Below, piece after piece: positions 5,186 through 28,968 of a stretch of 64,000 nucleotides of DNA. The notes beneath the pieces are model-generated. The model was not told where the DNA came from. It did no database searches and saw nothing but the letters and a program-made list of their open reading frames with translations. Location of the stretch: NCBI RefSeq assembly GCF_030552475.1, contig NZ_JAUPED010000006.1, positions 186,001-250,000 of the forward strand. Direction: 5' to 3'. Numbering within the stretch: position 1 is the stretch's first letter; every line of letters starts with the position of its first letter. This stretch comes from Mariniflexile sp. AS56. GTDB taxonomy: Bacteria > Bacteroidota > Bacteroidia > Flavobacteriales > Flavobacteriaceae. The position numbers were made by a program, and so were the translations under genes.

Positions 5186-5242
5186 AAAGCAAGTTTTTGA
5201 GCGATAAGAGAAAGTATCACCTATGTAAGTTATATAATTTAG
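5186..5242 (+). promoter_or_regulatory. Fucan-regulon-type operator and promoter, site 1
   Basis: Box AAAGCAAGTTTTTG (5186-5199) with second half-site AGAAA 21 bp after the first AGCAA. Exactly 35 bp after the box comes TAATTTAG (5235-5242), a -7 element with one mismatch to TAnnTTTG. It lies 26 bp before the start codon of the GH95-like gene, so it probably drives that gene and the sulfatase and phosphatase behind it. Confidence 0.55.
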
Positions 5243-5268
5243 CATTTATATTATGTTAATTGTTAACT

Positions 5269-7653
5269 ATGGAAATTAAAATATCTAAAGTATCTTATTG
5301 TTATTTATTCTTCGTGCTATTTTATAATTTTAGCCTAAATGCTCAAAAGGTCGATTTTAAAGTAGGTTACGAATCTTTTTTATCAAAGCACGATATGCTT
5401 TGGGATATTGTTCCAGACAAATGGCAAACCGCTCCGTATTCAGGAAATGGTAATGTTGGGTTTTTATTATATCAAGGAACCGAAGAAAAAGACAATGTGA
5501 TCTCCCTGCATATTGGACGTCATGATTATTACGACCATAGAGAAGCAGAAACAAAAGCAGATGAAATGCTTTGGATCAAACGAAGCAGATTACCATTGGG
5601 TCATTTTAAGCTAAGCTCTAAAGGGAAAATTACCGGAGTTGACATGCGTTTAGATTTATGGAATGCCGAATTAACAGGTACTATAAAAACGTCTCAAGGA
5701 AGTTATAAAATTAAAGGATTTACGCATAGTACGAATGATATTATCTATTTGGAAACCGATACCAAAGATGAAAACATAGAAATTACTTGGCATGCCGAAG
5801 ATCCTATTCCTCCAGTTTATGAAGTTTTAAAAAGCGGTGGTGGTCCAGAAGGTGGTACTTGGGATAATATGAGAGAAGTAACTCTAGAAATGGCACCCAA
5901 ACCAACTTTTACTGAGAAAAACGGTTTCAATTTCTGTTACCAACCATTATTCGATAACAGAGGAGAAACCACTACAGGTTATAAAATAACGGGTAATCCT
6001 TCCGAAAAACAACAATTAATTGCGAGTGTGCATCATTGTTTTCCAGACCATAATTCACTAGAAATTGTTACTGGAAATTTAGAAACTGCCGAAGCTCTTA
6101 TCCAAGAAAACAACTTTGTATCTACCCATAAAAAATGGTGGCATGACTATTATCCTTTAAGTTTTTTAACTATTAATGATGCTGAAAAAGAATCTTTCTA
6201 TTGGATTCAAATGTATAAATTAGGATCTGCTTCTAGAGGAAACGGACCTATTTTAGATTTAATGGGACCTTGGTATAACAGAACCTTTTGGCCAATGGTT
6301 TGGGGTGATTTAAATGTGCAATTAATTTATTGGACACATTTAACAGCGAATAGAATGTCTATTGGAGAATCTCTACCAAACAACATTGATAGATACGCCA
6401 AAAACCTAGAAGACAACGTGCCTCCGCAATGGAAAAACAGTGCTGCCGTTGCTGCTTTAATGCCGCAAGACCTCATCGCTTTTAATGGTGCAAAAGTGCC
6501 AGATATGTTAGCGTGGATTTTAAACGATTATTGGTTGCATTGCCAATTTGCAGGAGATGATATTCGAATGCGAGATAAACTATTTCCTATCTTAAAAAAG
6601 ACGGTGAATAGTTATTTGAATTATATAAAAGACAATCCTGTAGATGCCGAAGATGGCAAAATTCATATTAAATATAGTTGGTCCCCAGAATACAAACCAG
6701 GTCGTGGTCAAGACATTAACTTCACATTGGCGCTGATTCGTTGGAGTTGCCAAGCGCTAATCGACATTGATGAAAAGCACCAAATAAATGACCCACTTAA
6801 AAAAGAATGGAGACACTTATTAGACAATTTAGTAGATTTTCAAATTGATGAAAACGGACTGATGGTAGGAAAAGATAGACCTTTTGCGAATCCGCACAGA
6901 CATTATTCCCATCTATTGGCTTTTTATCCTTTAATGGTGATTACTCCTGAAAAAGAAGAAGACAAAACATTATTACGTACATCTTTAGATCATTGGTTAG
7001 ATGTTACTTTTAATAGCGGAAAGAAAATTAAAGCCATGCCAGTAACGGGTTATACCGCAACTGGAGCTTCTTCTATGTATGCCAATTTAGGCGATGCCGA
7101 AAAAGCGTATTATTATTTAGATTTTCTAATCAAGCATAAAAATATTTCGTCTACCACGATGTATTCCGAAGGGAAAATCAATCCGGTGATTGAAAGTCCG
7201 TTGTCTTTTGCAACCAGTGTACACGATATGATGTTGCAAAGTTGGGGAGGAAAAATACGTGTATTTCCTGCAAGTCCAAAAAAATGGAAAGACGTTGCTT
7301 TTCATGATTTAAGAACCCAAGGTGCTTTTCTAGTAAGCGCTAAAAAAGTAGAAGGAGTTACCGAATTTGTTTCCGTAAAAAGTTTAAAAGGAAATGCTTG
7401 TATCGTTCAAGTCGATTTTGAGAATCCGGAATTTTATATCGACGGAAAATCGGTTTCTATACCTGAAACATCCGATGGTTTTTATACTATTGATTTAAAG
7501 CAAAATGAATCTGTTATTATTACTTCCAAAGAAATAAACAAAACAGATTTAAGTATTCAAGAATTACCAAAATCGGAAGCAGAGCAAAATCTATTCGGTT
7601 ATGGCAAGAAAACAAAACGACTACCAGGTCATGACTATTACAGTTCTTATTAA
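5269..7653 (+). CDS. GH95-like alpha-L-fucosidase family protein
   Basis: About 795 residues. I use ATG 5269 rather than the upstream TTG because it starts a normal signal peptide (MEIKISKVSYCYLFF... ending NAQ). The N-terminal beta domain has APYSGNGNVGFLLYQ, the GH95 N-terminal GNGxxG signature; an (alpha/alpha) barrel follows with WGDLNVQLIYW and SWSPEY, and HRHYSHLLAFYP near residue 545. GH95 enzymes invert alpha-1,2-fucosides (some act on L-galactose). In characterised GH95 the first barrel motif is N-x-N-x-Q; here it reads D-L-N-V-Q, so one of the two catalytic asparagines is aspartate (D347, N349 kept). Substrate specificity may therefore differ. The role would be exo-removal of fucose from oligomers. 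The last 53 bp overlap an alternative upstream start of the next gene but not its likely start. Confidence 0.82.
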   Translation: MEIKISKVSYCYLFFVLFYNFSLNAQKVDFKVGYESFLSKHDMLWDIVPDKWQTAPYSGNGNVGFLLYQGTEEKDNVISLHIGRHDYYDHREAETKADEMLWIKRSRLPLGHFKLSSKGKITGVDMRLDLWNAELTGTIKTSQGSYKIKGFTHSTNDIIYLETDTKDENIEITWHAEDPIPPVYEVLKSGGGPEGGTWDNMREVTLEMAPKPTFTEKNGFNFCYQPLFDNRGETTTGYKITGNPSEKQQLIASVHHCFPDHNSLEIVTGNLETAEALIQENNFVSTHKKWWHDYYPLSFLTINDAEKESFYWIQMYKLGSASRGNGPILDLMGPWYNRTFWPMVWGDLNVQLIYWTHLTANRMSIGESLPNNIDRYAKNLEDNVPPQWKNSAAVAALMPQDLIAFNGAKVPDMLAWILNDYWLHCQFAGDDIRMRDKLFPILKKTVNSYLNYIKDNPVDAEDGKIHIKYSWSPEYKPGRGQDINFTLALIRWSCQALIDIDEKHQINDPLKKEWRHLLDNLVDFQIDENGLMVGKDRPFANPHRHYSHLLAFYPLMVITPEKEEDKTLLRTSLDHWLDVTFNSGKKIKAMPVTGYTATGASSMYANLGDAEKAYYYLDFLIKHKNISSTTMYSEGKINPVIESPLSFATSVHDMMLQSWGGKIRVFPASPKKWKDVAFHDLRTQGAFLVSAKKVEGVTEFVSVKSLKGNACIVQVDFENPEFYIDGKSVSIPETSDGFYTIDLKQNESVIITSKEINKTDLSIQELPKSEAEQNLFGYGKKTKRLPGHDYYSSY

Positions 7654-7660
7654 AAAATAT

Positions 7661-9181
7661 ATGAAAACATTTTTATACAGCATCTTTATATGCGCTTCTT
7701 TTATATCCTGCAAAGCACAAGAACAACAAAAAAAACCGAATGTCATTTTTATTTTTTCGGATGACCAAAGGTTCAATTCTTTGAGCATGACCGGAGATCC
7801 TATAGCAGAAACTCCAAATATCGATCAACTAGCAAAAGAAGGTGTCTTTTTTAATAACGCATATATTACTAGTCCTATTTGCGGACCAAGCAGAGCAAAT
7901 ATCTTTACGGCACAATGGGAACGAAAAAACAAAATTGGGTTTACCAATATTTCAAAACATGTGATTTCTAAAAAGACCTATCAAGACAGTTGGCAAGCAC
8001 AATTAAAGAATGCTGGATATTCCACTGCTTTTATTGGAAAACACCACACTAAAATTGGAGATAGAAAAGATACACCTTTAGTCGAAAACACCGATTTTAG
8101 TTATTATGGAAATGGCCATTTAGGATTCTATCCAGAAAAAAAACACAAACAATTCAGCAATCTAAAAAACAAAACCCAAGTGGAAGGTTTATTAGAAGCT
8201 ACGAAAGCCTACTTAACACAAGGTGATGATTATAAGTATTTTTACGAAAATGCAGACCCTTCCATTAAAAATCAACTTCAAAAAAGAGATCCTAACAAAC
8301 CCTTTTCGGCATGGATTAATTTAAATCTTCCGCATGCCTCTAGTATTGGAGGTATGGGTTCCCACGATACAGATCCTGAATATTACAAAACAAAGTATGA
8401 CGATGTAAAGCATAAAATGGAATTTCCGGATAACTATCCTCAAGATATTAGCTTACCTGAAAATGTGTATGCGACATCCGATTTAATGAAATATTATGTC
8501 ACTGCTAATAAAGGCAAATTATTAAATGAAAAGCTAAAAATGGATCGCGCTAATTACGCTATCGATTTGATGGTAGGTAATTTACGTGCCTTTTTAAAGG
8601 AAATTGGCGAAGCGGATAATACCATTATTGTATTTTGTTCCGACAATGGTTTGTTTTTAGGCGAACACGGATTAGGTGGAAAAACCATTTTATATGATGA
8701 ATCGGTGCATGTTCCTATGATTGTGTATTCGCCATTTTTCAAGGATAAAACAAAAGGAAAAGTGATTGAGGAATTGGTAGTCGGACAAGATATTCCTGCA
8801 ACGATACTAGAAATGTGTGGTGTACAAACGCCGCAATCCTATCAAGGAAAAAGTATGCTTCCATTAATAGATGGTAAAAATGATAACTGGAGAGAAGATA
8901 TCTTTTTAGAAAACTTATTTACCGATCAAGGCTACCCAAGACAAGAAGGTGTAAGAAGTAAACAGTATAAATACATTCGCTCTTTCAGTAAAGAAAACGA
9001 TCGAAATAAATACGTTCCAGAACAAACAATAGATACAGATGAACAACCAATCTATGAGGAATTATTCGATATCATAAAAGATCCTAAAGAGCAGAATAAC
9101 TTAGTTGGAAACAAAGATTACATCGACGTTTTAAATGCATACAGAGAAAGATGTAAAATCCTTGTTTCCGAATTAAACTAA
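7661..9181 (+). CDS. Lipoprotein sulfatase, family S1
   Basis: 506 residues from ATG 7661, chosen because it begins a lipoprotein signal (MKTFLYSIFICASFISCKAQ, lipobox ASFISC-like with cysteine at ~17); the frame is open upstream to 7601 but inside the previous gene. Metal-binding FSDDQRFN, formylglycine motif ICGPSR with C74, GKHHTKIG, FCSDNGLFLGEHG and DIIKDPKEQNNL. SDDQ with C-G-P-S-R and LGEHG resembles the iduronate-2-sulfatase/choline-sulfatase side of S1 and differs from the SDDLG group elsewhere in the window, so it probably removes a different sulfate. It starts 7 bp after the GH95-like gene and is translated with it. Confidence 0.93.
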   Translation: MKTFLYSIFICASFISCKAQEQQKKPNVIFIFSDDQRFNSLSMTGDPIAETPNIDQLAKEGVFFNNAYITSPICGPSRANIFTAQWERKNKIGFTNISKHVISKKTYQDSWQAQLKNAGYSTAFIGKHHTKIGDRKDTPLVENTDFSYYGNGHLGFYPEKKHKQFSNLKNKTQVEGLLEATKAYLTQGDDYKYFYENADPSIKNQLQKRDPNKPFSAWINLNLPHASSIGGMGSHDTDPEYYKTKYDDVKHKMEFPDNYPQDISLPENVYATSDLMKYYVTANKGKLLNEKLKMDRANYAIDLMVGNLRAFLKEIGEADNTIIVFCSDNGLFLGEHGLGGKTILYDESVHVPMIVYSPFFKDKTKGKVIEELVVGQDIPATILEMCGVQTPQSYQGKSMLPLIDGKNDNWREDIFLENLFTDQGYPRQEGVRSKQYKYIRSFSKENDRNKYVPEQTIDTDEQPIYEELFDIIKDPKEQNNLVGNKDYIDVLNAYRERCKILVSELN

Positions 9182-9202: not shown

Positions 9203-10042
9203 ATGAAAAAGCTACTACTAACCTTTCCTATTGTCATCGGAATCTTCATTTTTGGAATGCTACTTCCGAAAAGCAATATAAATGAAACTTCTAACAATAC
9301 CGAAGTAATTCAGAAGAAAGACTCCACAAAATCGAAGCTTCGAATTTACTATATAAGACATGCAGAAGGTGGACATAATGTTAAAAAAGAATGGGGAATA
9401 TACCCAGAAAGCGAATGGCCTTCTTATGTTGGTGATCATAGTACATTTACGCCTAAAGGAATTATGCAACTGTCCAGAGTGACTAATAAGTTAAACCGGT
9501 TTAATTTCGACTTTGTAGCCGTAAGTCCTGCATGGCGTTGTAAAAAAACCGTATTACTATATCTAGAAGCTTCCAAAATGAAAGCAGAGATTTGGCCAGA
9601 ACTTGCTGAAATTTATGCAACCAATCTTATGGTTTCGCCAGATTTACCAGAACATACAGCAACCGATAAAATACTAGGTGCTGGAGATGCTATCACTTTA
9701 CTTCCAGAAGAAGCTCCTTATTTTACGTTGCGTAAAGATGGTTTGCATGAATTTAAGAAAATGCGATTTCCTAGAGATCATTCCGAGAGTGCAAAAGAAA
9801 ATGCGATGGCGAAGGTAATTATCGATCGTGTTCTAGAATTAATTGATGAACGCAGTGCTTCTCATAAAACGATACTTTTATCCGGACATGGAAGCAGCGG
9901 AAAAGCAGTTTTAAGAATGCTTACAAAAAATCCTTTAAATGGTTTTCCTCAAATAACAAATACCGGTATTTGGATGGTAGAACAACAAGAGGATGGTTCG
10001 TTTAAATTAATGATGTTTAATGATGTCCCTTTATCGGAGTAA
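9203..10042 (+). CDS. Exported histidine phosphatase superfamily protein
   Basis: 279 residues with an N-terminal hydrophobic segment (~4-22) that could be a signal peptide or anchor. The RHG-type motif is IRHAEGGHN with H53, the residue phosphorylated in this superfamily (phosphoglycerate mutase branch); the second catalytic histidine is in SGHGSSG (H229), and SPAWRCKKT (~108) supplies a conserved arginine. It starts 21 bp after the sulfatase stop on the same strand, so it is likely in the GH95-sulfatase operon. A phosphatase has no obvious task in fucan breakdown; possibilities are a phosphorylated substituent or phosphate scavenging. The superfamily is confident; the substrate is unknown. 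Confidence 0.85.
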   Translation: MKKLLLTFPIVIGIFIFGMLLPKSNINETSNNTEVIQKKDSTKSKLRIYYIRHAEGGHNVKKEWGIYPESEWPSYVGDHSTFTPKGIMQLSRVTNKLNRFNFDFVAVSPAWRCKKTVLLYLEASKMKAEIWPELAEIYATNLMVSPDLPEHTATDKILGAGDAITLLPEEAPYFTLRKDGLHEFKKMRFPRDHSESAKENAMAKVIIDRVLELIDERSASHKTILLSGHGSSGKAVLRMLTKNPLNGFPQITNTGIWMVEQQEDGSFKLMMFNDVPLSE

Positions 10043-10105: not shown

Positions 10106-10242
10106 ACTATTTTTGTGCTTTTATTTTTTTTATTAAAAACTCGAATAGCCCAAAATTAAACTTTCAAGATATTGGACCAACTGAAGATTATAACCTTATT
10201 TTAATGCGCTATTTAACGCCAAAACCTTAGCAATGCAAAAAA

Positions 10243-10299
10243 AGAGCAAGCATTTGACCGAATAAAGAAATGTCTTTTCCTATAATTACAAGATATTTG
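10243..10299 (+). promoter_or_regulatory. Fucan-regulon-type operator and promoter, site 2
   Basis: Box AGAGCAAGCATTTG (10243-10256), second half-site AGAAA with 21-bp periodicity, then 35 bp to GATATTTG (10292-10299), one mismatch to TAnnTTTG. The start codon of the lipoprotein gene is 28 bp further on. Confidence 0.65.
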
Positions 10300-10327: not shown

Positions 10328-11845
10328 ATGAAAGCAACCAAGTATATTTCAGCTATTCTATTACTACTATTAAGCATATCCTGTTCAACAGATTTAGATA
10401 ATAAATATGAGTCTCCTGAAATTCCTAATCAATTCATGGATTTTACTATTGACAATGATACTCAATCTATTGATAATGAAATTACAGTAACCATTCAATC
10501 CGGAGATTACCAATCTACATCCGTTCGTTTTGTAGATGAAATTGGAGTTCCGTATACACCTCCTAAAACAGAACCTAGTGAAGGAGAAAATGCAAGTGAT
10601 TTAGACAATGTTTTTATACCTACTATTACAGTAACTGAGAACAATAATTTAGAATATAAAATTTCAGCGACAAAACTTAGATTAGATGAGAAAGCACTAT
10701 TAGAGGTTGAAAGTTTTTTAGTAGAAGTTAAGGTCGTTAATAATAGTGGAGTTGAATTAACAGGATACGATAGAATTTATTTCAGTGATGTTGAATACAT
10801 ATTTAACACAAAAATATCATTTAATGAAACAGGAGGCGATAGCCAAACATTTAATGTAGGAATAGAAGACACAGATGATCTTGATGCTAATATTATAGCC
10901 GTGGGAGGTACAGGTATAGTTTCAGAAAACATTAGTTTTATAGGTGTTGCTACTGAAGATCCTAGTGATGATGGTGCCACTGCAACTTTTACTTTTGAAT
11001 TAACTACAGATGCAGCTACTGCAATTGATGCTACTTTAAATTTAGAATTAGCAAAAAGAGAAAAAGGTAGCGTTACAGGTACCGTTTCTGTAACGGGGTA
11101 TCCAGATACACCTTTTTCTTATGAAGTGACATCAACTGTTGATGGTGGTAGTGCTCCAGCTATCGATTTTGAATTTGCATCAACTATTTCACTTGTTTCA
11201 GGCACAACGCTTACGGTTACTATTACACTGGATGAGATGTTAACTGAAGGAAATACAACAGCTCCTATTTTTAAGTTATCAAAAGTAATTATAAATAAAG
11301 GTGGTAATGAACCTGAACCGGCACAAGATACTTGGCTAGATGTAGATAATTCAATTGAAAAATTAACAGTATCAACCGTTTGTACAGACTGTTCTGTAGA
11401 AACAGTGGCAAACCCTGATGCTGCAGATGCAGAAGCTACGAATGTAACAAAATGGACTATAGGTTCTACTTCTGGCAGTGGAAACAAAAGTCTTGATTTT
11501 GATTTCAAAGACGGAGAGGGTATTACACTTGCTGATTATGCTAACTTAATAGTAACCGTACGTATGTACTGGCCTAGTTTCAATGACATTAGTAATTATG
11601 ATAGTAATGAGCGTATTAGATTCTATTTAAGTGATGGAGTTAATGAACAACAAGTACAAGGTAAATTTGTTGAATCTAACGAAGCTGGATGGCATACTAT
11701 GGAATTTGATTTTACAGGAACACCATCAGGTCCTGCCCTAACATCAGATATAATTAGTGGAGAAATTAGATTAATAGGTAATAAATTTACAAATATAGAT
11801 AATGGTCTTGAATTTTATATTGACACGATCACTACAAATTTATAG
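10328..11845 (+). CDS. Surface lipoprotein with beta-sandwich glycan-binding-like modules
   Basis: 505 residues; lipoprotein signal with SISCS (Cys ~20). The rest is acidic beta-rich sequence with no catalytic motif. Residues ~335-505 form a module that recurs at the N-terminus of the repeat protein at 25430-28879 (shared: a CxDCSVE/CDDCSVS start, SNYDSN followed by RIRFYL or RVRFYL, IRLIGN, and a final YIDTIT or YVDTIT), and more distantly at the N-termini of the two fucanase-like proteins. This suggests a carbohydrate-binding module. By position and build it could play the SusE/SusF-type surface glycan-binding role, but no SusC/D pair is adjacent. It is preceded by a regulon-type operator. 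Function inferred from architecture only. Confidence 0.7.
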   Translation: MKATKYISAILLLLLSISCSTDLDNKYESPEIPNQFMDFTIDNDTQSIDNEITVTIQSGDYQSTSVRFVDEIGVPYTPPKTEPSEGENASDLDNVFIPTITVTENNNLEYKISATKLRLDEKALLEVESFLVEVKVVNNSGVELTGYDRIYFSDVEYIFNTKISFNETGGDSQTFNVGIEDTDDLDANIIAVGGTGIVSENISFIGVATEDPSDDGATATFTFELTTDAATAIDATLNLELAKREKGSVTGTVSVTGYPDTPFSYEVTSTVDGGSAPAIDFEFASTISLVSGTTLTVTITLDEMLTEGNTTAPIFKLSKVIINKGGNEPEPAQDTWLDVDNSIEKLTVSTVCTDCSVETVANPDAADAEATNVTKWTIGSTSGSGNKSLDFDFKDGEGITLADYANLIVTVRMYWPSFNDISNYDSNERIRFYLSDGVNEQQVQGKFVESNEAGWHTMEFDFTGTPSGPALTSDIISGEIRLIGNKFTNIDNGLEFYIDTITTNL

Positions 11846-12156: not shown

Positions 12157-12266
12157 TTAAAACAAACATCCCCAAACGTTACAATTACACACTTTATATA
12201 ATTGATGATTAAAGACACTTTTAAGAATTAAATGATTTCAGATTAGTTAATTACCAATGATGTTTT

Positions 12267-12323
12267 AGAGCAAGTATTTGACTATTTAAAGAAACACGAT
12301 TCCCCATTAACTATATATCTTTG
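12267..12323 (+). promoter_or_regulatory. Fucan-regulon-type operator and promoter, site 3
   Basis: Box AGAGCAAGTATTTG (12267-12280) with second half-site AGAAA, 35 bp, then TATCTTTG (12316-12323), a full match to TAnnTTTG. The start codon is 30 bp downstream. Box sequence is identical to site 5 on the opposite strand. Confidence 0.7.
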
Positions 12324-12353: not shown

Positions 12354-14318
12354 ATGACTAAATCTTTACCTATTTTCTTTTTTTTACTTTGTTTCGTTCA
12401 ATTATCCCATGCTCAATTTTTATGGTATGAAAATGAAACAAACACCTATCAAATTGAATTAGAAAGCACAACGTCAGGGAATTTTTATACAAAAATTACC
12501 AATCCAAATAATACAGGAATTAATACAAATGCTGTGGTTTCTAAATTTAATAGAGACGAAGGCACAAGTGCTTTTTTAAAATTTGATTTGTACCAGCCAG
12601 TAATGGATTTCACGGGGTATACGATTACCATTAAAGCCTATTTAGATATTCCTACCGCAGCATTGACGAATAGTAATTCGAAATTAAGAATGTATTTCTT
12701 AAATGCTTCCGGAGGACCACAAACCTATAAACAATTAAATTTTTCTGTGGGACAAACATGGGAATCTTTCACCTTCGATTTTAATGGCGTTGCCATTCCT
12801 GAGGAAATATTAAATGCCAACGGTTTTAATCAAATTAGAATAGGTTTTGCAAATAATTCTACATCTGTAGCAGCAGCCACATATTACATAGATACTATAA
12901 GTGGTACCACAGAACAAGTAGCAAATACCACAACACATTCAGCGGCTTGGTTATCAGGTTCGTGGGGCGTTACCTTTCCTGTTTTTGGAGGAGAACGTTT
13001 AGATGCTGAAGTTGCTGGAGGTTACAATCTTCCCGCGGGTGCTCAGGAAGTGGTGGATGAGCTTCCTGCTGCAGGACATGTTATTACAAATCTTTCCTAT
13101 TTTGCGCATTCACATTATTTTACGTTAAGACAGAATAGCAATGTGGATGTAGCAACAGAAATACATGAAAGCTTGGTGCCAAGTTTAGCGAATGAAGCTA
13201 TAATTTTTGAGGTTATGCAAAAGTTTAAAGATTCAGGAAAGAAAGTTATTTTGTATATCTCTACCAATTATTTGGATAGAGCAGATGTGGAAACTCAAGC
13301 TGCTTGGGTAGACTATTATACAAACCATATTGATTTTGCAGGAGATGAGTATTTGGCTTATAAAGACCTAGTTGAAGGGTTTATAGAACGTGTAAAGGAT
13401 TATGCAGATGCCTATTGGTTGGATACAACTGGAGAACTTTACGATGATGGACATCTAGAAGATTTTGTTGAAATGATTAAAGTAACTGATCCTGGGGCTG
13501 CTGTCTCAGTCACTGGAGTTGGTGCAGCTTATTTCCAAAAAAACGGTGAAAATATTTTAGTAGATTCTGATGGTCTTGATGATGAAGATGCAAGGGATTA
13601 CAAAATAATAAAATTTGAAGGCGTTAATAGGTACCAAGATTTTACAAGAGGACATGTGACACCACTAGGACAAGGAGCGCCTCCTAATTCTTGGGCTTAT
13701 GAAGAATTTACGATACCTCACATGGTTGAAAATCCATGGTCCATGTATGAAGGGAATACCGTATTAAAACACGCTTGGTTTCCAGTAAGAGCAAGGTGGC
13801 ATGTTTCGTCACAGCCATTAGTTTTTGGAACGGAAGATGCTTATAGGTTTGCAAAGCGTATTGTAAACGCCAATGCTGGCGTAACTTTTGCTACCACTAT
13901 AAATGATATTGGTAGTGGCAAAGGTTATATGATGGATGATGAAATGCTAATTATGAAAGCAATTAATGATAGACTTCTATCTAACCCTGTGCCTGATTAT
14001 GAGCCTTATGCAAGACCAGAAGGGGCTTTTCTAGTAGGGGAGTCAACTTTATCAACTAGTGCGCATAATAATACATCACAAGTTAAGTTTTATCCCAACC
14101 CTGCAGTAAATAAGTTAACTATTACTAGAACATCAACGGGTATAGATTATATAACAGTTATATCTATTTTAGGTACTACAGCTCTAGAAAAGGTATGGAG
14201 TAATGGATCTATGACGACACAATTAGATGTATCTACTTTAAATTCAGGAATTTATTTTATAAAACTGTCTAATGGTAATAATCATACCATCACTCAAAAA
14301 ATAATAATATCTAAATAA
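12354..14318 (+). CDS. T9SS-secreted candidate fucan hydrolase (family unassigned), copy 2
   Basis: 654 residues, paralog of 3196-5142 with the same order: signal peptide (~1-20), beta-sandwich module (~21-190, WYENETNTYQ to YYIDTISG), barrel-like domain (~200-560) and T9SS tail (FYPNPAVNKL onward). D357 in YWLDTTG and E422 in IKFEGVN match D364 and E428 of copy 1, and HVTPLGQGAPPNSWAYEE is shared. The copies differ most in the loop around residues 300-345, so they may cut different sulfation patterns. It has its own regulon-type promoter and is followed by two sulfatases on the same strand. The catalytic role is inferred from fold-like motifs and context; the CAZy family is not assigned. Confidence 0.75.
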   Translation: MTKSLPIFFFLLCFVQLSHAQFLWYENETNTYQIELESTTSGNFYTKITNPNNTGINTNAVVSKFNRDEGTSAFLKFDLYQPVMDFTGYTITIKAYLDIPTAALTNSNSKLRMYFLNASGGPQTYKQLNFSVGQTWESFTFDFNGVAIPEEILNANGFNQIRIGFANNSTSVAAATYYIDTISGTTEQVANTTTHSAAWLSGSWGVTFPVFGGERLDAEVAGGYNLPAGAQEVVDELPAAGHVITNLSYFAHSHYFTLRQNSNVDVATEIHESLVPSLANEAIIFEVMQKFKDSGKKVILYISTNYLDRADVETQAAWVDYYTNHIDFAGDEYLAYKDLVEGFIERVKDYADAYWLDTTGELYDDGHLEDFVEMIKVTDPGAAVSVTGVGAAYFQKNGENILVDSDGLDDEDARDYKIIKFEGVNRYQDFTRGHVTPLGQGAPPNSWAYEEFTIPHMVENPWSMYEGNTVLKHAWFPVRARWHVSSQPLVFGTEDAYRFAKRIVNANAGVTFATTINDIGSGKGYMMDDEMLIMKAINDRLLSNPVPDYEPYARPEGAFLVGESTLSTSAHNNTSQVKFYPNPAVNKLTITRTSTGIDYITVISILGTTALEKVWSNGSMTTQLDVSTLNSGIYFIKLSNGNNHTITQKIIISK

Positions 14319-21115: not shown

Positions 21116-21889
21116 TTACTTTTTAACAATTCTTAAAGTTTTAGAACCCGATTGGGTTTTGATATTTGCAATGTACATACCTGTTGCTAAATCACTAATA
21201 TCATAATCAGCTTCTGCTTTAAATGTTTTTAATAAACGTCCCGTAATATTATATAAACTTACACGCTCAATGTTTTCTTTAGAATTTAATTGAAAACTGT
21301 TAGTTGCAGGATTAGGGTAAGCACTAATAGAAGCGTTATTTAATTCAACGTCATTTACACCTAAAGTTTGTTGTGTAAAAGTAACACTATAGTATCTAAA
21401 TACAACGTCAGAAGCAGAACCTTTTGTAATATCAACATCCAATGTTATAGTTTTAGGAACCGATGTAATAGTTACATTTTGAGAATATGCTAAATTATTA
21501 AATGTTTCAAAATCATCAACGGTGGCAGGAGTATTATCTTCATTTAACGCAAACGACGGATCAGTTGTGCCATCAAAAGTAAAATCTACACTACCAGAAT
21601 TACCATGTCTTTTTCTTACGTGGAATACAATGGATGCCAAGAAATCTGCTCCAGAGGAAACCACATCAAAACTAATAGTTCCATTAACATCAGTTGCATG
21701 ACTCCAATTAACATGAGCGCCATTCCCTGCCGTTCCAAAAGTTCCACTTGTAAAATTTTTAGTTTGAGTTGTTTCTGCTATTCTAACTTGTTGTGAATTA
21801 GTTTCCAATGGATCAAGTGCCGTTGCTTGCCCAAATGTTAGAAATGAAGCAAAAAGTAATGTTGCTGTAAAAAGTAATTGTTTTTTCAT
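21116..21889 (-). CDS. Small T9SS-secreted beta-sandwich protein, function unknown
   Basis: 257 residues; signal peptide 1-21 (LTFGQA), a ~150-residue beta-rich domain and a T9SS type A tail beginning AYPNPATNSF. The domain resembles the last module of the sulfatase at 18185-20764: both end in a YYSVTF / YDVTFHV strand directly before the tail and contain an ISFDV/FDVTI-like repeat. It may be a stand-alone carbohydrate-binding module. It has its own regulon-type promoter with the best box in the set, so it probably responds to the same glycan. No catalytic motif is visible. Confidence 0.75.
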   Translation of the reverse strand: MKKQLLFTATLLFASFLTFGQATALDPLETNSQQVRIAETTQTKNFTSGTFGTAGNGAHVNWSHATDVNGTISFDVVSSGADFLASIVFHVRKRHGNSGSVDFTFDGTTDPSFALNEDNTPATVDDFETFNNLAYSQNVTITSVPKTITLDVDITKGSASDVVFRYYSVTFTQQTLGVNDVELNNASISAYPNPATNSFQLNSKENIERVSLYNITGRLLKTFKAEADYDISDLATGMYIANIKTQSGSKTLRIVKK

Positions 21890-21919: not shown

Positions 21920-21976
21920 CAAATATAGATAGATGCTGTTTTTTTGGTTTGTTTAAATCAATCAAATACTTGCTCT
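21920..21976 (-). promoter_or_regulatory. Fucan-regulon-type operator and promoter, site 5
   Basis: Read on the minus strand: box AGAGCAAGTATTTG (21976-21963), second half-site AACAA, 35 bp, then TATATTTG (21927-21920), a full TAnnTTTG match. The start codon is 30 bp downstream, as in site 3. Confidence 0.7.
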
Positions 21977-22223
21977 TTTCTTGTAACATAATTATAAATA
22001 ATGTTTTTTAAATTATATTATTTCTTCTTAATGGTTTCGTAATCAGTATGTTATTGTGAGTTTTTTTGTTTTTTTTAATTTTGATGAAATACTGCTGATT
22101 ACGGTTTGTTAAAAACTAAAATTCTTATCTGCAGGAATATTTTTACCTAAAAAGAAAGTGATAGGAAATGTTTTTAGCTTTTTTTGAAGCATCAATATCA
22201 TTAGCGGTGATACTGTTATAATT

Positions 22224-22281: not shown

Positions 22282-24183
22282 CTATAGGTTTGATAAAGCA
22301 AACTTAGAGAACGTTTCTTTTGTTTTTTTAATGGATTTTGAGGTAGGCATTTCAGGGTAACTCACTAAGAAGTTATGTTCATCAATTAAGTTGATGATGT
22401 AATGGGTTGTTCCCTTTGGTAAAGTGGCCGTTACCGTGTTATTTGCATTAATTTGAGCTTCCGCTTTAAACCATTCTTCATATCTGTGACCTCCATTGGT
22501 GGAGTAAATTAAATTAGCTTGTATCACTTTAGCACCATTTTCTTTGTATTTAAAAGAGACTTGGTTGTTCTTTTTTAATGCAGATATTACCGTAGGAACC
22601 GTTTCTTTATGTTCAATATCTCCTTTGTAGTTCGGGTTGTATGAAGGATAGCTGGCTTTCATTTCTGTTAAGATACTGCTAAGTTGAGTATTCATTTCGG
22701 TAACACGTTTAGGGTCCGATGTTGCTAAATTGTTCGCTTCTTCTATATCCACACGTTTTTCAGTTCCATTAGTCGAATCATAAAGTCTATAAAGCTCGAA
22801 TTCTGGTGTTCTCGGGTTGTTTTTGTAATCGTAGTTTCTTATGAATTTATAATCGCCAACACGTAAAGTACTTTGGTATGATGCATGCGGAAAGTGCCAC
22901 ATCATCGTGGTTCTTTCTTTTCCGTCTTTACCTATTACCAATTTAGGGTTTGTTGGGTCTTTTAATAACAAGGTTGATAAATCGGCACCATCTAAATGTT
23001 TACCGTTTGGTTTGTCAATATTTAATAAAGATAAAATAGTTGGGTAAAAATCAAGACCGTTTACAACAACATCAGTCTGTATTCCTTTTTTAATTCCAGG
23101 GCCTGCAATCATTAAAGGTACTCTGGTTCCGCCTTCTTTAGCATTAATTTTCCCTTTGTCTAGCGGGTAATTATCGGTTACGATATCACCGTGCGCATTT
23201 TCCATACCTCCGTTATCTGATGTGAAAATAATATAAGTGTTTTCACTTAATTTATGTCCTGGCCAACGTGGGTCATCGGTGGTTTCTAAATAATTAAAAA
23301 CTTGTCCTACATAGTAGTCTAACATTTCTACCATGGCGCAGTAAAACGGGTTGTTTTGGCCTTCTACGTCCCAATGGTTAGGGTCTGTTGGATATGCTAC
23401 GCCTAATTTTTCACAGTATTTCTCTAAAAGGGCTTTACTTCTAGTGTGGATAGGTGCGTGCACCAAAAAAGTAGCGTAATATAGGAAAAATGGATCCTGT
23501 TTGTTTTCCTTTAAGAAGTTTAAAGCATCTTGACTGTTTTGATGATAAGGAAAACCGTTTTCATCCAATCGAAAAGGGTCGGATGCTTCATTGGTAGCAA
23601 AATCTGTTAATCTATGTGGTGTTTGAGGTGTTGTTGCACCTCTGTCTGCAGTAGATACATCAAAACCTTGATCGGTAGGTTGTGGATATGCAAAGTGGTT
23701 GATGGCCATGTGCCATTTTCCGGTATGTCCTGTTTTGTATCCCTTTTGTTGTAATGCTCTGGCTAAGGTCATTTCGTTTTCGGGCATGCGGCCACTATAC
23801 CAAGGGTCCATAATACGCTGTATATCTTTATTCGCATACACGGTTGGGGGCGCACCACCAACCACATGTGTTTTTTGTGCACGTGCTGGGTGTGTGCCAC
23901 TCATAATGGCACACCTACTTGGTGCACAGGTTGGAGCGGGTGAGTAGGCTTGCCAGAATTGAACACCTTTTTTAGCAAAAGCATCCATATTTGGAGTCTC
24001 GTACGGGGAAGGTTCGTCTATATCATAACATTTAACATCTTGCCAACCTAGGTCGTCTGTGAGTAAAAGAACGACGTTGGGTTCTGGTCGTTTATTATTA
24101 GAAGTTTCAGTTTGCTTTTGGGCATTACAACTAAAAAACAAACAAATTGTTAAAACTAATAGTTGATTTTGTATATGTTTCAT
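22282..24183 (-). CDS. Lipoprotein sulfatase, family S1, with C-terminal beta domain
   Basis: 633 residues; lipoprotein signal with FFSCN (Cys ~19). LTDDLGWQDVKCYDID, TCAPSR with C86, GKWHMA, LVHAPIHTRSKALL and FTSDNGGMENAHGD. It is closely related to 16012-17877 over its full length, including the C-terminal domain (VPTVISALKKNN to NFLVSYPE, with LPKGTTHYIINLIDEHNF). The lipid anchor instead of a plain signal peptide puts this copy on a membrane. It stands alone on the minus strand, with a hairpin after it. The upstream region has GTAAGTTATTTGAG and TTGCAA words resembling the regulon box, but not at the standard spacing. Confidence 0.94.
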   Translation of the reverse strand: MKHIQNQLLVLTICLFFSCNAQKQTETSNNKRPEPNVVLLLTDDLGWQDVKCYDIDEPSPYETPNMDAFAKKGVQFWQAYSPAPTCAPSRCAIMSGTHPARAQKTHVVGGAPPTVYANKDIQRIMDPWYSGRMPENEMTLARALQQKGYKTGHTGKWHMAINHFAYPQPTDQGFDVSTADRGATTPQTPHRLTDFATNEASDPFRLDENGFPYHQNSQDALNFLKENKQDPFFLYYATFLVHAPIHTRSKALLEKYCEKLGVAYPTDPNHWDVEGQNNPFYCAMVEMLDYYVGQVFNYLETTDDPRWPGHKLSENTYIIFTSDNGGMENAHGDIVTDNYPLDKGKINAKEGGTRVPLMIAGPGIKKGIQTDVVVNGLDFYPTILSLLNIDKPNGKHLDGADLSTLLLKDPTNPKLVIGKDGKERTTMMWHFPHASYQSTLRVGDYKFIRNYDYKNNPRTPEFELYRLYDSTNGTEKRVDIEEANNLATSDPKRVTEMNTQLSSILTEMKASYPSYNPNYKGDIEHKETVPTVISALKKNNQVSFKYKENGAKVIQANLIYSTNGGHRYEEWFKAEAQINANNTVTATLPKGTTHYIINLIDEHNFLVSYPEMPTSKSIKKTKETFSKFALSNL

Positions 24184-24350
24184 TTAATTTTTTTTTTATT
24201 TTTTACAAACCCAACCGTTTGTATTTTGTTGTATGCACACCTTATGTTGCAAATTCGAATAGCTCAAATAACTTACTTTATGTTTACAATCGTTTTCTCT
24301 AATCTGTTATTTTTTTTCTTTTTACTATCATTTTAGCTTTGGTTAAAAAA

Positions 24351-24426: not shown

Positions 24427-24777
24427 CTATTTCTTTTTCTTCTTTTTGGTAGCATTCAAAATGGCTTTACCACGTTTGTCTCCAAAAGTTTCCAATAGGT
24501 TTTTTTCAAATTGCTTACGGTTTTCTCTTGTTTTTTCTTTAAAAGTATCTGGGTCACTTTCTTTTAAACCTTTAGGCAACTCAGCTCGGTTTAAAAATTG
24601 AGTTTTTTGTAATTCAAAATATTTTGCTTTCTCTTCTTCTGTCAACTCAATAGCAGTCTGTACTTTTTCAACAGCCTTTTGAGCTTTTTTTTCTGCGTTT
24701 TTTTCTGATTTTGATTGTGCCATGGCAGATAGACTAATTAATAAACCTACAATTACTGTTAATACAATTCTTTTCAT
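24427..24777 (-). CDS. Small exported helical protein, Spy/CpxP-like
   Basis: 116 residues; signal peptide 1-20 (LSAMAQ). The mature part is charged and helical, with ELTEEEKAKYFELQ and KEKTRENRKQFEKNLLETFGDKR, and ends in KKKKKK. It is homologous to the equally long protein at 53113-53463 (LSDDKKIELNELL, KGKTRGINRKYFADL). The LTEEQ-type start of the helical region resembles Spy/CpxP and related periplasmic proteins. Both copies sit next to a sulfatase gene, which hints at a chaperone or accessory role for exported enzymes; this is inference. A strong terminator follows. Confidence 0.75.
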   Translation of the reverse strand: MKRIVLTVIVGLLISLSAMAQSKSEKNAEKKAQKAVEKVQTAIELTEEEKAKYFELQKTQFLNRAELPKGLKESDPDTFKEKTRENRKQFEKNLLETFGDKRGKAILNATKKKKKK

Positions 24778-25175
24778 TTTCGTTTTTTTAAATTAAACAT
24801 TCTATTTTTTTGCTTGAAGGGTAAAGAGGATTGGTATTTATTAAAACCTAAACCTCTGTACAAATTAAACTTATTTTATAAAAAAAAGCTTTCTTGTTTT
24901 CGTCTTTATTTTGCTCTAATTGGGCTATGTGTTGTCGGTTTTTGTGTTATTGTGCTGTTTATTAGGTTTTTATGTATTGATGCCGATTCCTGGTTATAAA
25001 AAATAAGAGTTATAGATATATCTGAAATATGTTTTTAAATGATAAAAAAATATGCACAAGATTATTAAAATCATGTGCATATTTAGTAGTGTGTAATTGA
25101 TTTTGATTCTTAACGAAACGTATCATTATCAACTTTATTTACTCCATTAAAAGGAGTTGAAAGATGAAAAATAAA
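24778..25175. other. Intergenic region with terminator
   Basis: 398 bp upstream of the 116-aa gene and downstream of the PID-CTERM gene; contains the terminator at 25048-25084. No regulon-type promoter and no convincing gene. Confidence 0.55.
25048..25084 (-). terminator. Intrinsic terminator
   Basis: 15-bp stem AAATATGCACAAGAT / ATCATGTGCATATTT with one mismatch, followed by a U-run on the minus strand, about 90 bp after the PID-CTERM gene stop. Confidence 0.7.
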
Positions 25176-25429: not shown

Positions 25430-28400
25430 TTAGTTTATGATTAATTTTTTAGTTGTTGTAACCCCTTTTGATGTTAGATTAACAAAATACACACCTTTGT
25501 TTTGAGTAAAGTGAGTACTGATAGCTTTCTCTTTTCCAGGAGTGAAGTTGTTTTTGTAAAACAATTTAGCCCCTAATGCATTGTAGATTGTTACTTCCAA
25601 ATCGTCTATGTTTTGGGGTGTGTTTAAGTAAAATAGTCCCGTGTTTGATGGATTTGGATACAATTGAATTTGGTCAATTGCCTCTGTTGAAACCGATAAG
25701 GTTTTTGTAGCAAAGCCAATACTAAATCGACTAGGATCTTTAGAAGCAGGGATGTTTGTGTCTACGTTATAAGGGTAGTTCACTGTTCCGTTTTGTGGAA
25801 TTTCAGTTTGTTGGTTGGTATACGAATCAATCAAATATGGCGTCGCACCTTGCATTGCTTTACCTTCAGCAACTATGGTATAGTTATTATTACGGTAGGT
25901 GTTAATTTCTAGAGGCACAGACTCTGCGTCTACAGGAGTTGCTCTGTTTTCTATACCTAATAAAGTACCATTGTTGGAGGTCGCAAAGTTTTCATCTAAG
26001 TTGGTGAATTTTGGAGCATCCTCATCATTAATACCGTTGTTTCCATTGTCTTCAAAAAGTATAAGTAACCCATCTGCAGCCGACTGATTCGCTGCTAAAG
26101 CACTACTTTCATATAAAGATAGTTTCAACTGGCCAGTATTTGCAGTTTTAGTAGCACTTTTAAATACGGCCGTTTCTGATGTTAACACGTTTTTACTTGC
26201 TTGTGTGAAATTGATGGATGCTATTCCAGGCGCTTCTGAGGCTGTATATACCCAACATGCTTGTCCTGCTTGTAAATATTGGTTTGCATCTCCAGCCGAT
26301 GAAGCTCCAGCGCTTACTGCTATCGTAGCATAGGCACCTCTTGAGCCTAAATTTGGATCCCAAACCCAATAATACGTTTTGTTGATGTTAGTAGTGCCTT
26401 CATTTAAAACGGTACGCATGTTTACAGGCGCTTGGTAAGGGTTTCCAATGAAAATGAATCGCTTATTAGGAACATTTACTTCCACTTTATTAGAAGCGTT
26501 ATTTTCAGCAGTTAAATTACCTGTAGAGGTTAATACCGTTTCTGTAGGACTTGGATTGTTGGATGTTAAATCGATAGATCGATCACCTCTTACTAAAATA
26601 TGATATCCTTGACCTACAGTTAAATTAGTGGCATCTGTACTCGGTATTGCAACATAATTATAATCATTATTATTAAAAGTATACATAGAAGCATTCCCAG
26701 TGGTGGTGGTGTCAAAACCATTATTACCATTAGTAGTGCCTGTAATATGTGTTCCCAATTGCCAGTTATTTTGAATAAAGGTACTTGTTGTTACAGGGCT
26801 ACTTATTTGACGAAATGCTCTTCTTGCTGGGATGTAGCGTTCTATGGTTGCATCACCAACAAAGGAACCTGTTCCTTGACCAATATAAGCCGATCCTGAA
26901 GTATTGGATTTTAAAGTCATACTTCCATCAATGGTTATGGTGCCGTTATTAGTTAGAACAACAGTTGGGTTGATGGTTAATGAAGCAGCATTTTGAATAG
27001 TTAAATTTAGACCATTTTCTAAACTTAGGTTTTGGCCTGTTGTTAAAATAGGGTAGTTTGATAGGTTACTCGGAATTATTACATCAACACTAGGCGTTAA
27101 ACCAGGGCCATTGTTATGAGCCCAGTTGCTCGAGTTTGTCCAATCTGAATTTAGTGCGCCGGTCCATGTAGTAGTTAAACCTTCATCAATACTTCCGTTA
27201 CAATTATTATCAATACCATCTTCAACTTCTATCGCATTCGAGTTGATAGCAGGATTGGTATCATCACAATCACCTTCATTTTCAGTTTGACCATCACCAT
27301 CATTATCCATATCAGCAGAATTATCTGGTGTTGAAGGATTACAATCATCATCAATACCATTATCTAGAATCTCCGTGTTTCCAGGGAATCTAGCCGCATC
27401 GTTATCATCACAGTCCGTATCGGAGTTTACACCATCACCATCCGCATCTAGGGTATCTGGTGTTTCTGGGTTACAGTCGTTATCGATGCCATCATATAAA
27501 ATTTCTGTAGCATTCGAGTTGATAGCAGGATTGGTATCATCACAATCACCTTCATTTTCAGTTTGACCATCACCATCATTATCAATATCAGCAGAATTAT
27601 CTGGTGTTGAAGGATTACAATCATCATCAATACCATTATCTAGAATCTCCGTGTTTCCAGGGAATCTGGCAGCATCGTTATCATCACAGTCCGTATCGGA
27701 GTTTACACCATCACCATCCGCATCTAGGGTGTCTGGTGTTTCAGGGTTACAGTCGTTATCGATACCATCGTATAGAATCTCTGTAGCATTCGAGTTGATA
27801 GCAGGATTGGTATCATCACAATCACCTTCATTTTCAGTTTGACCATCACCATCATTATCAATATCCACAGAGCTGTCTGGTGTTGAAGGATCACAATCAT
27901 CATCAATACCATTATCTAGAATCTCTGTGTTACCCGGATATCTGGCAGCATCGTTATCATCACAGTCCGTATCGGAGTTTACACCATCACCATCCGCATC
28001 TAGGGTGTCTGGTGTTTCTGGATTACAGTCGTTATCGATGCCATCGTATAGAGTCTCTGTGTTTCCAGGGAATCTAGCCGCATCGTTATCATCACAGTCC
28101 GTGTCGGAGTTTACACCATCACCATCCGCATCTAGGGTGTCTGGTGTTTCTGGGTTACAGTCGTTATCGATACCATCATATAAAATTTCTGTAGCATTCG
28201 TGTTGATAGCAGGGTTGGTATCATCACAATCACCTGCATTTTCTGTTTGACCATCACCATCATCATCAATATCATCTGGAGATATATTAGGGTTAGTACT
28301 TAAGGCCGACGTAGCTGTAATAGTATCAACATAAATTTTTAAACCGTTATTTAAGTCCGTAAACCTATTTCCAATCAGTCTGATTTCAGCTGAATCTATA

Positions 28401-28879
28401 AATCCAGCATCTGTGACATTGTAAGTAAATGTGTGTTCTATCCAAACGCCTTCATCTGATTCAGAAAAATTGACTTGTTTCTGTGTAACATTACTGGCCT
28501 CAGTAGATGCCAAATAAAATCGAACGCGTTTATTTGAATCATAGTTGCTGAAATTGGAGAAGCTCGTGAGGTAAAAGCGTACAGTGACAGTGAGTCCATT
28601 GACATCTGTTTCTTTAACTCCTAAATTAGTAGGGAAATTAACAATAAACCCTCTGTTTCCTGATGAACTACCTTCAGCTATTTCAAGTAGAGTTACACTT
28701 GAAGCTGAGTCAGAATTGTCAGGGTTGGGTACAATGGAGACGGAACAGTCATCACAAGAAGTTGCAGGTGTAATGGACACGTCGGTCACACCACCGTCAT
28801 GGTCGTACCAGGTATTTTGTGCATAAGTTGCAAATGAAGCAAGAAGCAACACTGTTATAAAAAGGAATTTTTTTTTCAT
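25430..28879 (-). CDS. Large T9SS-secreted protein with MopE-like metal-binding repeats
   Basis: 1149 residues; signal peptide 1-20 (FATYAQ). Residues ~21-195 are the beta-sandwich module shared with the lipoprotein at 10328-11845. Residues ~200-570 are eight Asp/Asn-rich repeats of about 45 residues in order A-B-B-A-B-A-B-A: A is DNDGDGQTENEGDCDDTNPA-like and B is DADGDGVNSDTDCDDNDAAR-like, each ending in a GIDNDCNP or GIDDDCNP unit. They match the putative metal-binding (MopE-type) repeat and probably bind calcium. A ~500-residue beta-rich region with no catalytic motif follows, then a T9SS tail (LYPNPSNTGL). Likely a calcium-stiffened surface protein holding a glycan-binding head. It has a regulon-type promoter, so it is part of the fucan response. 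Confidence 0.85.
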   Translation of the reverse strand: MKKKFLFITVLLLASFATYAQNTWYDHDGGVTDVSITPATSCDDCSVSIVPNPDNSDSASSVTLLEIAEGSSSGNRGFIVNFPTNLGVKETDVNGLTVTVRFYLTSFSNFSNYDSNKRVRFYLASTEASNVTQKQVNFSESDEGVWIEHTFTYNVTDAGFIDSAEIRLIGNRFTDLNNGLKIYVDTITATSALSTNPNISPDDIDDDGDGQTENAGDCDDTNPAINTNATEILYDGIDNDCNPETPDTLDADGDGVNSDTDCDDNDAARFPGNTETLYDGIDNDCNPETPDTLDADGDGVNSDTDCDDNDAARYPGNTEILDNGIDDDCDPSTPDSSVDIDNDGDGQTENEGDCDDTNPAINSNATEILYDGIDNDCNPETPDTLDADGDGVNSDTDCDDNDAARFPGNTEILDNGIDDDCNPSTPDNSADIDNDGDGQTENEGDCDDTNPAINSNATEILYDGIDNDCNPETPDTLDADGDGVNSDTDCDDNDAARFPGNTEILDNGIDDDCNPSTPDNSADMDNDGDGQTENEGDCDDTNPAINSNAIEVEDGIDNNCNGSIDEGLTTTWTGALNSDWTNSSNWAHNNGPGLTPSVDVIIPSNLSNYPILTTGQNLSLENGLNLTIQNAASLTINPTVVLTNNGTITIDGSMTLKSNTSGSAYIGQGTGSFVGDATIERYIPARRAFRQISSPVTTSTFIQNNWQLGTHITGTTNGNNGFDTTTTGNASMYTFNNNDYNYVAIPSTDATNLTVGQGYHILVRGDRSIDLTSNNPSPTETVLTSTGNLTAENNASNKVEVNVPNKRFIFIGNPYQAPVNMRTVLNEGTTNINKTYYWVWDPNLGSRGAYATIAVSAGASSAGDANQYLQAGQACWVYTASEAPGIASINFTQASKNVLTSETAVFKSATKTANTGQLKLSLYESSALAANQSAADGLLILFEDNGNNGINDEDAPKFTNLDENFATSNNGTLLGIENRATPVDAESVPLEINTYRNNNYTIVAEGKAMQGATPYLIDSYTNQQTEIPQNGTVNYPYNVDTNIPASKDPSRFSIGFATKTLSVSTEAIDQIQLYPNPSNTGLFYLNTPQNIDDLEVTIYNALGAKLFYKNNFTPGKEKAISTHFTQNKGVYFVNLTSKGVTTTKKLIIN
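27180..28275 (-). repeat. Tandem repeat array, 276-bp higher-order unit
   Basis: DNA encoding the eight metal-binding repeats. Successive A-B pairs are nearly identical at nucleotide level with a 276-bp period: for example, the segments starting near 27375 and 27651 match almost base for base. One B-B step breaks the alternation. Confidence 0.85.
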
Positions 28880-28911
28880 CGTTTAAAGGGTTTTAGATTA
28901 ATTAGTTACAA

Positions 28912-28968
28912 CAAACTTACCTGCAATCTGTTGTTTTTAATTGCTCAAATAGCCCAATTATTTGCTTA
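28912..28968 (-). promoter_or_regulatory. Fucan-regulon-type operator and promoter, site 6
   Basis: Read on the minus strand: box TAAGCAAATAATTG (28968-28955), exact second half-site AGCAA 21 bp after the first AGCAA, 35 bp after the box, then TAAGTTTG (28919-28912), a full TAnnTTTG match. The start codon of the repeat protein is 32 bp downstream. Confidence 0.65.

Follow-up and report, generated by a model that had tools for sequence, protein, structure and literature searches.

A paired half-site at exact promoter distance before nine gene groups suggests an HTCS1-read regulon in a probable algal-glycan locus of Mariniflexile sp. AS56

Introduction

The closest described systems are the targets of hybrid two-component systems (HTCSs) in Bacteroides, where direct repeats averaging 21 bp and read by HTCS dimers were predicted in 2013 for 16 regulators (PMC3878776; this and all other sources are cited from the excerpts available). 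For BT4124 and BT4663, which were tested by gel shifts of promoter fragments, phosphorylation sets the AraC-type domain free for binding at the susCD promoter (PMC11253607), while other regulators are treated in PMC12125979 and PMC8579813. The sigma-A promoter of Bacteroidota consists of TAnnTTTG and a TTTG at -33, and the -7 box lies at -12 to -5 in Flavobacterium psychrophilum (PMC7366714, PMC9723704). In this study, we analyzed a stretch of 64,000 nucleotides from Mariniflexile sp. AS56 (GCF_030552475.1, contig NZ_JAUPED010000006.1, positions 186,001 to 250,000), hereafter the window, which encodes two HTCSs, HTCS1 and HTCS2, and in which a pair of half-sites precedes the -7 element of nine inferred transcription units at a fixed distance.

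A literature search combining HTCS binding sites with the -7 box, which left subscription papers and supplements outside its reach, returned no fixed distance between the two in the excerpts available, and a search pairing hybrid two-component regulators with the -7 consensus returned, within the same excerpts, a transcriptome map only. The 21-bp direct repeats of HTCSs are thus already known; what is new is the HTCS1 regulon and its sequence.

Operator sites in the window

Nine transcription units are inferred to start between 3196 and 28879, and each carries one site (9/9). The operator unit comprises two 17-bp half-sites (ATGcTaGAATaGAGCAA / TTGAttGATTAGAGAAA) with a 4-bp gap, ending 21 bp 5' of TAnnTTTG. 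Sequence comparison makes it likely that these nine sites are the operators of one regulon, read by HTCS1, which would activate the sigma-A polymerase, and the recurrence of the same paired site at the exact promoter distance before nine gene groups makes a single sugar-sensing regulator probable. The sites are given below, with open reading frames (ORFs) and proteins of the type IX secretion system (T9SS) and glycoside hydrolase (GH) families; predicted starts were obtained by setting the -7 box at -12 to -5, as given for Flavobacterium psychrophilum in the available part of PMC9723704.

3018-3087, plus strand: half-sites 3021-3037 and 3042-3058; -7 element TACCTTTG at 3080-3087; predicted start 3092; before ORF 3196-5142 (T9SS-tailed protein)
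5173-5242, plus strand: half-sites 5176-5192 and 5197-5213; -7 element TAATTTAG at 5235-5242; predicted start 5247; before the GH95-like gene 5269-7653, in a putative operon with sulfatase 7601-9181 and His_Phos gene 9203-10042
10230-10299, plus strand: half-sites 10233-10249 and 10254-10270; -7 element GATATTTG at 10292-10299; predicted start 10304; before ORF 10328-11845, which is without Pfam match
12254-12323, plus strand: half-sites 12257-12273 and 12278-12294; -7 element TATCTTTG at 12316-12323; predicted start 12328; before the T9SS protein 12354-14318, in a putative operon with sulfatases 14360-15943 and 16012-17877
18101-18170, plus strand: half-sites 18104-18120 and 18125-18141; -7 element TATTTTTA at 18163-18170; predicted start 18175; before the T9SS sulfatase (ATG 18185/18188 to 20764)
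21920-21989, minus strand: half-sites 21970-21986 and 21949-21965; -7 element TATATTTG at 21920-21927; predicted start 21915; before the small T9SS protein 21116-21889
24265-24334, minus strand, weaker: half-sites 24315-24331 and 24294-24310; -7 element GTTATTTG at 24265-24272, with two mismatches; before sulfatase 22282-24183
24861-24930, minus strand, weaker: half-sites 24911-24927 and 24890-24906; -7 element TTAATTTG at 24861-24868; before ORF 24427-24777
28912-28981, minus strand: half-sites 28962-28978 and 28941-28957; -7 element TAAGTTTG at 28912-28919; predicted start 28907; before the MopE-repeat T9SS protein 25430-28879

An earlier note on this DNA had reported six 57-bp sites, all of which lie at the places and on the strands it gave, with the second half-site 21 bp after the first and the -7 element 35 bp after a 14-base box in every case. 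The gap from the -7 element to the ATG is 26, 28, 30, 30 and 32 bp in five of them, and 14 or 17 bp to the ATGATG downstream of site 18114. Its count, by contrast, rises to nine with 3031 on the plus strand and 24861 and the weaker 24265 on the minus strand. The 14-base box was misparsed as the unit, since it spans the end of the first half-site, the gap and the start of the second; the real 17-bp unit begins 10 bp upstream of the reported start. TAnnTTTG is complete at three of the six reported sites and at 3031, has one mismatch at the other three and at 24861, and has two at 24265.

When the 30 sites of our larger alignment (A4, see below) were extended upstream, a T and a G proved conserved at -58/-57 from the -7 box. 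Outside the window this TG is present at 15 of 23 sites, where the other positions tried give counts of 0-6, and within it at 5 of 7; it was noticed on these same sites, and its columns had been used in no scanning matrix or site selection. The unit is therefore read as two 17-bp half-sites with a 4-bp gap. Relative to the predicted starts, the distal half-site would occupy -71 to -55 and the proximal one -50 to -34, at a fixed distance and overlapping the -33 region. None of the 30 sites has a TTTG at -33, for which the interval from -28 to -17 relative to the -7 box was inspected, and such a TTTG was rejected on this count as the source of the 21-bp signal.

In the ORF of the T9SS sulfatase, the first ATG in frame (18104) falls inside the operator and is an unlikely start; translation probably begins at the ATGATG at 18185/18188.

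Chance and signal within the window

The pattern can be written as a literal rule, formulated after the sites had been seen: AGYAA, ARMAA 21 bp later, and, 47 bp on from the AGYAA, TAnnTTTG with one mismatch allowed. This rule matches eight times in 64 kb (the six reported sites, 3031-3087 on plus and 24861-24917 on minus), compared with a mean of 0.09 and a maximum of 2 in 300 dinucleotide shuffles, and a maximum of 2 at 575 other spacing pairs. In a leave-one-out analysis over 64 kb with a 57-column matrix, two of the six sites were the best non-training place and the other four were outscored by 3031-3087 (plus) only; the 14-base box alone performed less well, 18114 being outscored by three places and 28912 by ten.

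For wider scans we used two models, R1, a sequence-only model of seven window sites that include 3031, and R2, built from the 30 sites of alignment A4. Sites 24265 and 24861 were kept out of training. The former scores 26.4 bits with the 30-site matrix, against 14.2 for the best non-site, and 33.3 bits with a 17-bp matrix, and the latter reaches E=0.12 at best with R2 in its own genome. The 21-bp spacers carry little information, 2.6 bits over their 21 columns in the 23 sites outside the window and 6.9 bits in the small sample of 7 window sites, which indicates that the sites are not copies of one promoter. The shared site is a real feature of this DNA.

Association of the motif with HTCS1

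The window encodes two regulators with an AraC-type output domain, both of which have in a single chain the Reg_prop sensor, HisKA, HATPase, receiver and AraC-type helix-turn-helix (HTH) domains that define an HTCS.

29197-33354, minus strand: HTCS1; Pfam matches to a Reg_prop sensor, Y_Y_Y, HisKA, HATPase, receiver and AraC-type HTH_18
40265-44401, plus strand: HTCS2; architecture of HTCS1, with a DNA-binding domain 62% identical to that of HTCS1

Site 28912-28981 and its MopE-repeat gene lie directly downstream of HTCS1. The CHIP motif, the kinase His and the receiver Asp are present in HTCS1, and its sensor, which is predicted to bind the cognate oligosaccharide, resembles solved HTCS sensors (4a2l) by sequence only.

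We searched for orthologues in 299 genomes of the family, including its own, scoring two candidates per genome, and found HTCS1 matches in seven other genomes (59-69% identity, one 44%) in addition to a paralogue in its own genome (76%). Near HTCS1-type genes, the window matrix detected sites with both exact spacings in Winogradskyella arenosi and in five further genomes (G173, G002, G129, G207 and G229); the neighbourhood from Wenyingzhuangia has a single weak site. The genes that follow the sites in other genera encode sulfatases, fucosidases, GH95, GH43, SusC and secreted proteins, and a site stands just 3' of the HTCS1-type gene in 6 of 11 other neighbourhoods, as it does in the window.

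Across 496 kb of HTCS1-type gene surroundings and flanking regions of the own genome, 24 sites exceed 18 bits, against 0.3 per shuffle (20 shuffles); shifting the -7 element by 1-15 bp either way (30 offsets) leaves 1-8 such sites. Shifting the second half-site by 1-12 bp (24 offsets, 544 kb) leaves at most 10 sites, against 21 in place. Nine neighbourhoods picked by the HTCS1-type gene alone (323 kb) contain 13 sites above 18 bits, and 78 loci of more distant HTCSs (1.51 Mb) contain one match above 16 bits. Among 44 sites above 15 bits, seven of them training sites, 43 lie outside ORFs longer than 150 aa, and the exception, 18114, overlaps the unlikely upstream start. Thirty of these 44 were retained for A4 and R2 and 14 were removed by hand (C46:142832, 142853, 142939, 144983 and 210265 of the own genome; G002:C14:55224; G002:C8:183627; G173:C1:387221; G173:C32:70280; G207:C3:185009; G229:1218991; L105:14236; L106:14141 and 18478). 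Among the matches listed, which reach E=0.0405, we count R1 clusters (at least two within 60 kb) in 4 of the 7 other genomes that have an HTCS1-type match versus 2 of 291 without (Fisher p=1.6e-6), or in 5 of 8 when the own training genome is included (p=6e-8).

Several observations weigh against assigning the motif to HTCS1. No site above 15 bits was found at two of the 11 HTCS1-type neighbourhoods (G203:C92 and G207:C1), and G173:C1 and L105 have a single weak site each. In G207 the strongest R1 matches lie about 440-450 kb from the HTCS1-type gene of that contig, and in G002 most strong R1 matches are on a different contig from that gene. G173:C32, G002:C14, the own C46 and part of C8 were scanned since R1 matched there, so that the 24-site excess in 496 kb is partly selected. 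The published CHIP interface also has D and K partners, which were not located here, and the GH29/SusCD operon of the window (GH29, SusC and SusD from 44724) has no full HTCS1-type site, so that the regulon would cover only part of the locus. Taken together, the comparative data suggest that the motif belongs to HTCS1 by association, and they favour the proposal of the earlier note, a promoter shared by a regulon and bound by the AraC-type output domain in the form of a tandem dimer. That note had named both hybrid regulators as readers; HTCS1 keeps this role, as the motif tracks it across genera, whereas HTCS2 is left without comparative support.

Distribution in the genome, target genes and probable substrate

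In the 4.65-Mb genome, R1 returned its seven training sites at E<=3.7e-6 (3031 at 3.7e-6) and a next best match at E=0.0167, so that the motif is nearly confined to this locus. Among 23 further R1 matches in this genome, 16 lie inside ORFs and three, C46:158331, C46:173120 and C8:1507, are intergenic with full geometry. With R2, which is circular for its own training sites (12 of the 14 best own-genome matches), these 14 all fall at C46:142-215 kb or on C8, and the next has E=0.08. These three sites outside the window, and a fourth at C46:172882, are as follows.

C46:158331: before a sulfatase
C46:173120: before a GH29 fucosidase
C46:172882: divergent from 173120, before a SusC-type receptor
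C8:1507: before a small protein with a signal-peptide-like start

These matches support an extension of the regulon to a second locus on C8 and to the genes for SusC and a fucosidase that lie 13 kb ahead of the window. Scans of the genome, of shuffled sequence and of relatives, which the earlier note had proposed, found the motif concentrated before genes of polysaccharide utilization loci (PULs). At this second locus, G000:C8:1-34000 (L034, L102), the gene for the 76% identical HTCS1 paralogue is accompanied by a separate SusC-type gene and by two sites like those of the window. The stretch G000:C46:142832-145038 (L031) holds four weaker sites, of which two overlap, and the genes that follow them encode a sulfatase, a GH29 fucosidase and a GH43-like protein; the beginning of the regulon may lie some 43 kb ahead of the window.

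The targets in the window comprise sulfatases, a GH95-like enzyme, T9SS-tailed proteins, the MopE-repeat protein and others, and those in relatives and flanks include GH29, GH43, SusC/TonB receptors and the carbohydrate-binding module CBM96. Between both HTCSs, at 34137-39809, lie an aldehyde dehydrogenase, a major facilitator superfamily (MFS) transporter and genes of lactate-oxidation type (CCG, LUD/Fer4), which are compatible with a route from fucose via lactaldehyde to lactate; no HTCS1 site above 5 bits precedes them. These genes and the targets together fit a sulfated, fucose-rich glycan, and the probable substrate is one of algal origin. In Winogradskyella arenosi (L106:4509), a site is located 270 bp before a similar aldehyde dehydrogenase.

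Alternative readers of the sites

The strongest competitor of HTCS1 is HTCS2, or both regulators in turn, which we regard as unlikely. The DNA-binding domains of the two proteins are 62% identical and have similar recognition helices, so that a half-site may be common to both, and the HTCS2 stop codon is overlapped by a good single HTCS1-like half-site, ATGATCGATTTGAGCAA (44398-44414). Nevertheless, genomes that have no close relative of HTCS2 carry the motif next to their HTCS1 orthologues: in the 299 family genomes, with two candidates each, HTCS2 had no match above 44% identity in other genomes, and its best ones were HTCS1 orthologues. Its own operon, moreover, lacks a full site and has a different candidate element instead.

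44475-44504, plus strand: candidate HTCS2 element TCGCCCAAACAAAAAGCGTGATACGAGTAA, before the GH29/SusCD operon (44724 on)

With up to 3 mismatches, this 30-bp element recurs once in the genome, at C46:258649, and the sequence shows a -7-like box that follows its AGTAA by 26 or 27 bp; HTCS2 may thus read a separate element. The copy at C46:258649 may be a segmental duplicate, because it is preceded by an apparent decayed HTCS gene end. Similar non-coding stretches about 28 kb apart, at 44390-44505 of the window and at L035 9570-9680, contain HTCS-like half-sites in both orientations (GATTTGAGCAAC ... GTTGCTCAAATC in the window; TGAATCGCCCAAAC is the block common to both), and the latter is preceded by an apparent decayed HTCS 3' end.

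Recognition of the sites by another transcription factor, or by an alternative sigma factor standing in for the -33/-35 contact, is improbable. All 30 sites lack a -33 TTTG, hence some compensation is needed; yet the -7 box has the housekeeping TAnnTTTG form of Flavobacterium, and a single HTCS clade is what the motif tracks. Promoters of extracytoplasmic function (ECF) sigma factors, moreover, do not usually have the shape of a tandem 17-4-17 repeat. Chance alignment, given a pattern first fitted by eye in DNA that is 66% AT, or the copying of one duplicated promoter deserves practically no credence in the face of the shuffles, the offset controls at other spacings, the leave-one-out and held-out sites, the recurrence in other genera and the unconserved 21-bp spacers, which answers the concern about chance raised in the earlier note and agrees with its exclusion of duplication.

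Proposed mechanism of HTCS1 activation

HTCS1 as reader of the sites leads to the following model. HTCS1 would sense a periplasmic oligosaccharide of a sulfated, fucose-rich glycan, and its kinase would phosphorylate its own receiver domain. The AraC-type domains of an HTCS1 dimer, once released, would bind the two head-to-tail 17-bp half-sites, which at 21 bp apart would present the same DNA face. The proximal half-site sits where the -33 element is missing, and from there HTCS1 could contact the sigma-A RNA polymerase in a class II-like manner, co-activating the sulfatases, fucosidases, GH95 enzyme, SusC and T9SS-secreted proteins. At araBAD of E. coli, AraC activates in class II fashion from I1-I2, a direct repeat of two 17-bp half-sites separated by 4 bp, of which the proximal one reaches the -35 region. 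The half-sites described here have this same arrangement, which argues for direct contact with sigma.

A possible common register at other HTCS promoters

We lean, by a small measure, toward a Bacteroidota-wide rule in which HTCS-activated promoters would carry tandem half-sites in one register, ending about 21 bp before TAnnTTTG whatever their sequence, with the dimer replacing the -33 element. The sample consisted of exact-TAnnTTTG promoters beside HTCSs outside the HTCS1 clade, 292 after near-duplicate removal (129/170 loci, three sets). For the interval -47 to -43 compared with +21 bp, fixed beforehand from HTCS1, spacing 21 was the best of those tried in each set, with a pooled identity of 0.335 versus 0.283 (t=3.9 by promoter, 3.6 by locus). 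For -60 to -42, an interval picked after a first look at the same promoters over all positions and spacings, spacing 21 was the best of 34 and top in each set, with 0.327 versus 0.290 (t=4.9 by promoter, 4.6 by locus), and at least 11/19 matches were reached by 17 promoters at spacing 21 versus a mean of 3.6 and a maximum of 11 at other spacings.

The stretches -82 to -64 and -41 to -23 gave t 1.27 (1.75 by locus) and t 1.07, respectively, and the control anchors CAAAnnTA and TAnnTGTT/GTTT gave t 1.48 and 1.45, the relaxed TAnnTTT[ACT] giving 4.20. Spacing 21 was not first in set 2 in the sub-window -59 to -55, and a first direct-repeat test with 9-base words on 146 promoters had no peak. Helical phasing of A-tracts was rejected as the origin of the 21-bp signal, as spacings 10, 11, 31 and 32 are not raised.

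Other results count against generality. The control anchor TTTGnnTA reached t 2.64 with 21 ranked first, which weakens specificity. Control regions away from HTCSs are few, with t -0.60 (n=22) or, with 3-kb loci, t 0.71 and 2.01 by locus (n=35). The genes behind the 18 strongest repeats (the 17 counted above, with near-duplicates removed and a slightly different ORF rule) are mixed: four TonB/SusC-like, a fucosidase, a sulfatase, KduI, a galactokinase, three regulators and seven others. A within-locus identity test anchored at the -7 box, which we do not count as support for the rule, gave a family-wise p of 0.004 and 0.02 in two of four variants of set 1, where two small control anchors (14 promoters and 7 pairs each) also reached 0.02-0.03 by the single-column statistic. 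In set 2 the prespecified proximal p was 0.011, 0.105 and 0.36, and the distal one was not significant. Set 3 gave no replication (p 0.40, 0.47), and sets 2 and 3 together gave 0.063 and 0.218.

Comparison with known systems

This analysis names a likely master regulator and a nine-site regulon for breaking down what is probably a sulfated, fucose-rich glycan of algae, and it predicts the transcription starts to the base. If the register is general, it would explain how promoters that lack a -33 element are activated in Bacteroidota; sequence could then reveal the targets of orphan HTCSs, and each HTCS could be linked to its promoters even when its motif is not known.

AraC differs from HTCS1 in being soluble and sugar-binding and in acting at the -35/-10 promoter of sigma-70, whereas HTCS1 is a membrane-bound hybrid kinase acting at the Bacteroidota -7 element. 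The HTCS operators of Bacteroides are alike in their tandem repeat, in the proposed dimer on one face two turns apart, in their PUL targets and in their regulator-specific motifs, and one of these motifs, with 16-bp sites and a 5-bp spacer, comes near the 17+4 of the HTCS1 sites (PMC3878776). In contrast, HTCS1 belongs to presumed marine Flavobacteriaceae and has another sequence, and the available parts of that source describe neither a fixed -7 distance nor a replacement of the -33 element. BT4124 and BT4663 have the same domain order and CHIP loop as HTCS1, the excerpts of PMC11253607 reporting no half-site spacing. The absence of a -33 TTTG is by itself not special, as Flavobacterium johnsoniae, in the excerpts available, is described likewise (PMC7366714, PMC9723704). 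Compared with the Bacteroidota sigma-A promoter, the HTCS1 sites have the same -7 box, and the -33 TTTG appears to be replaced by the proximal half-site.

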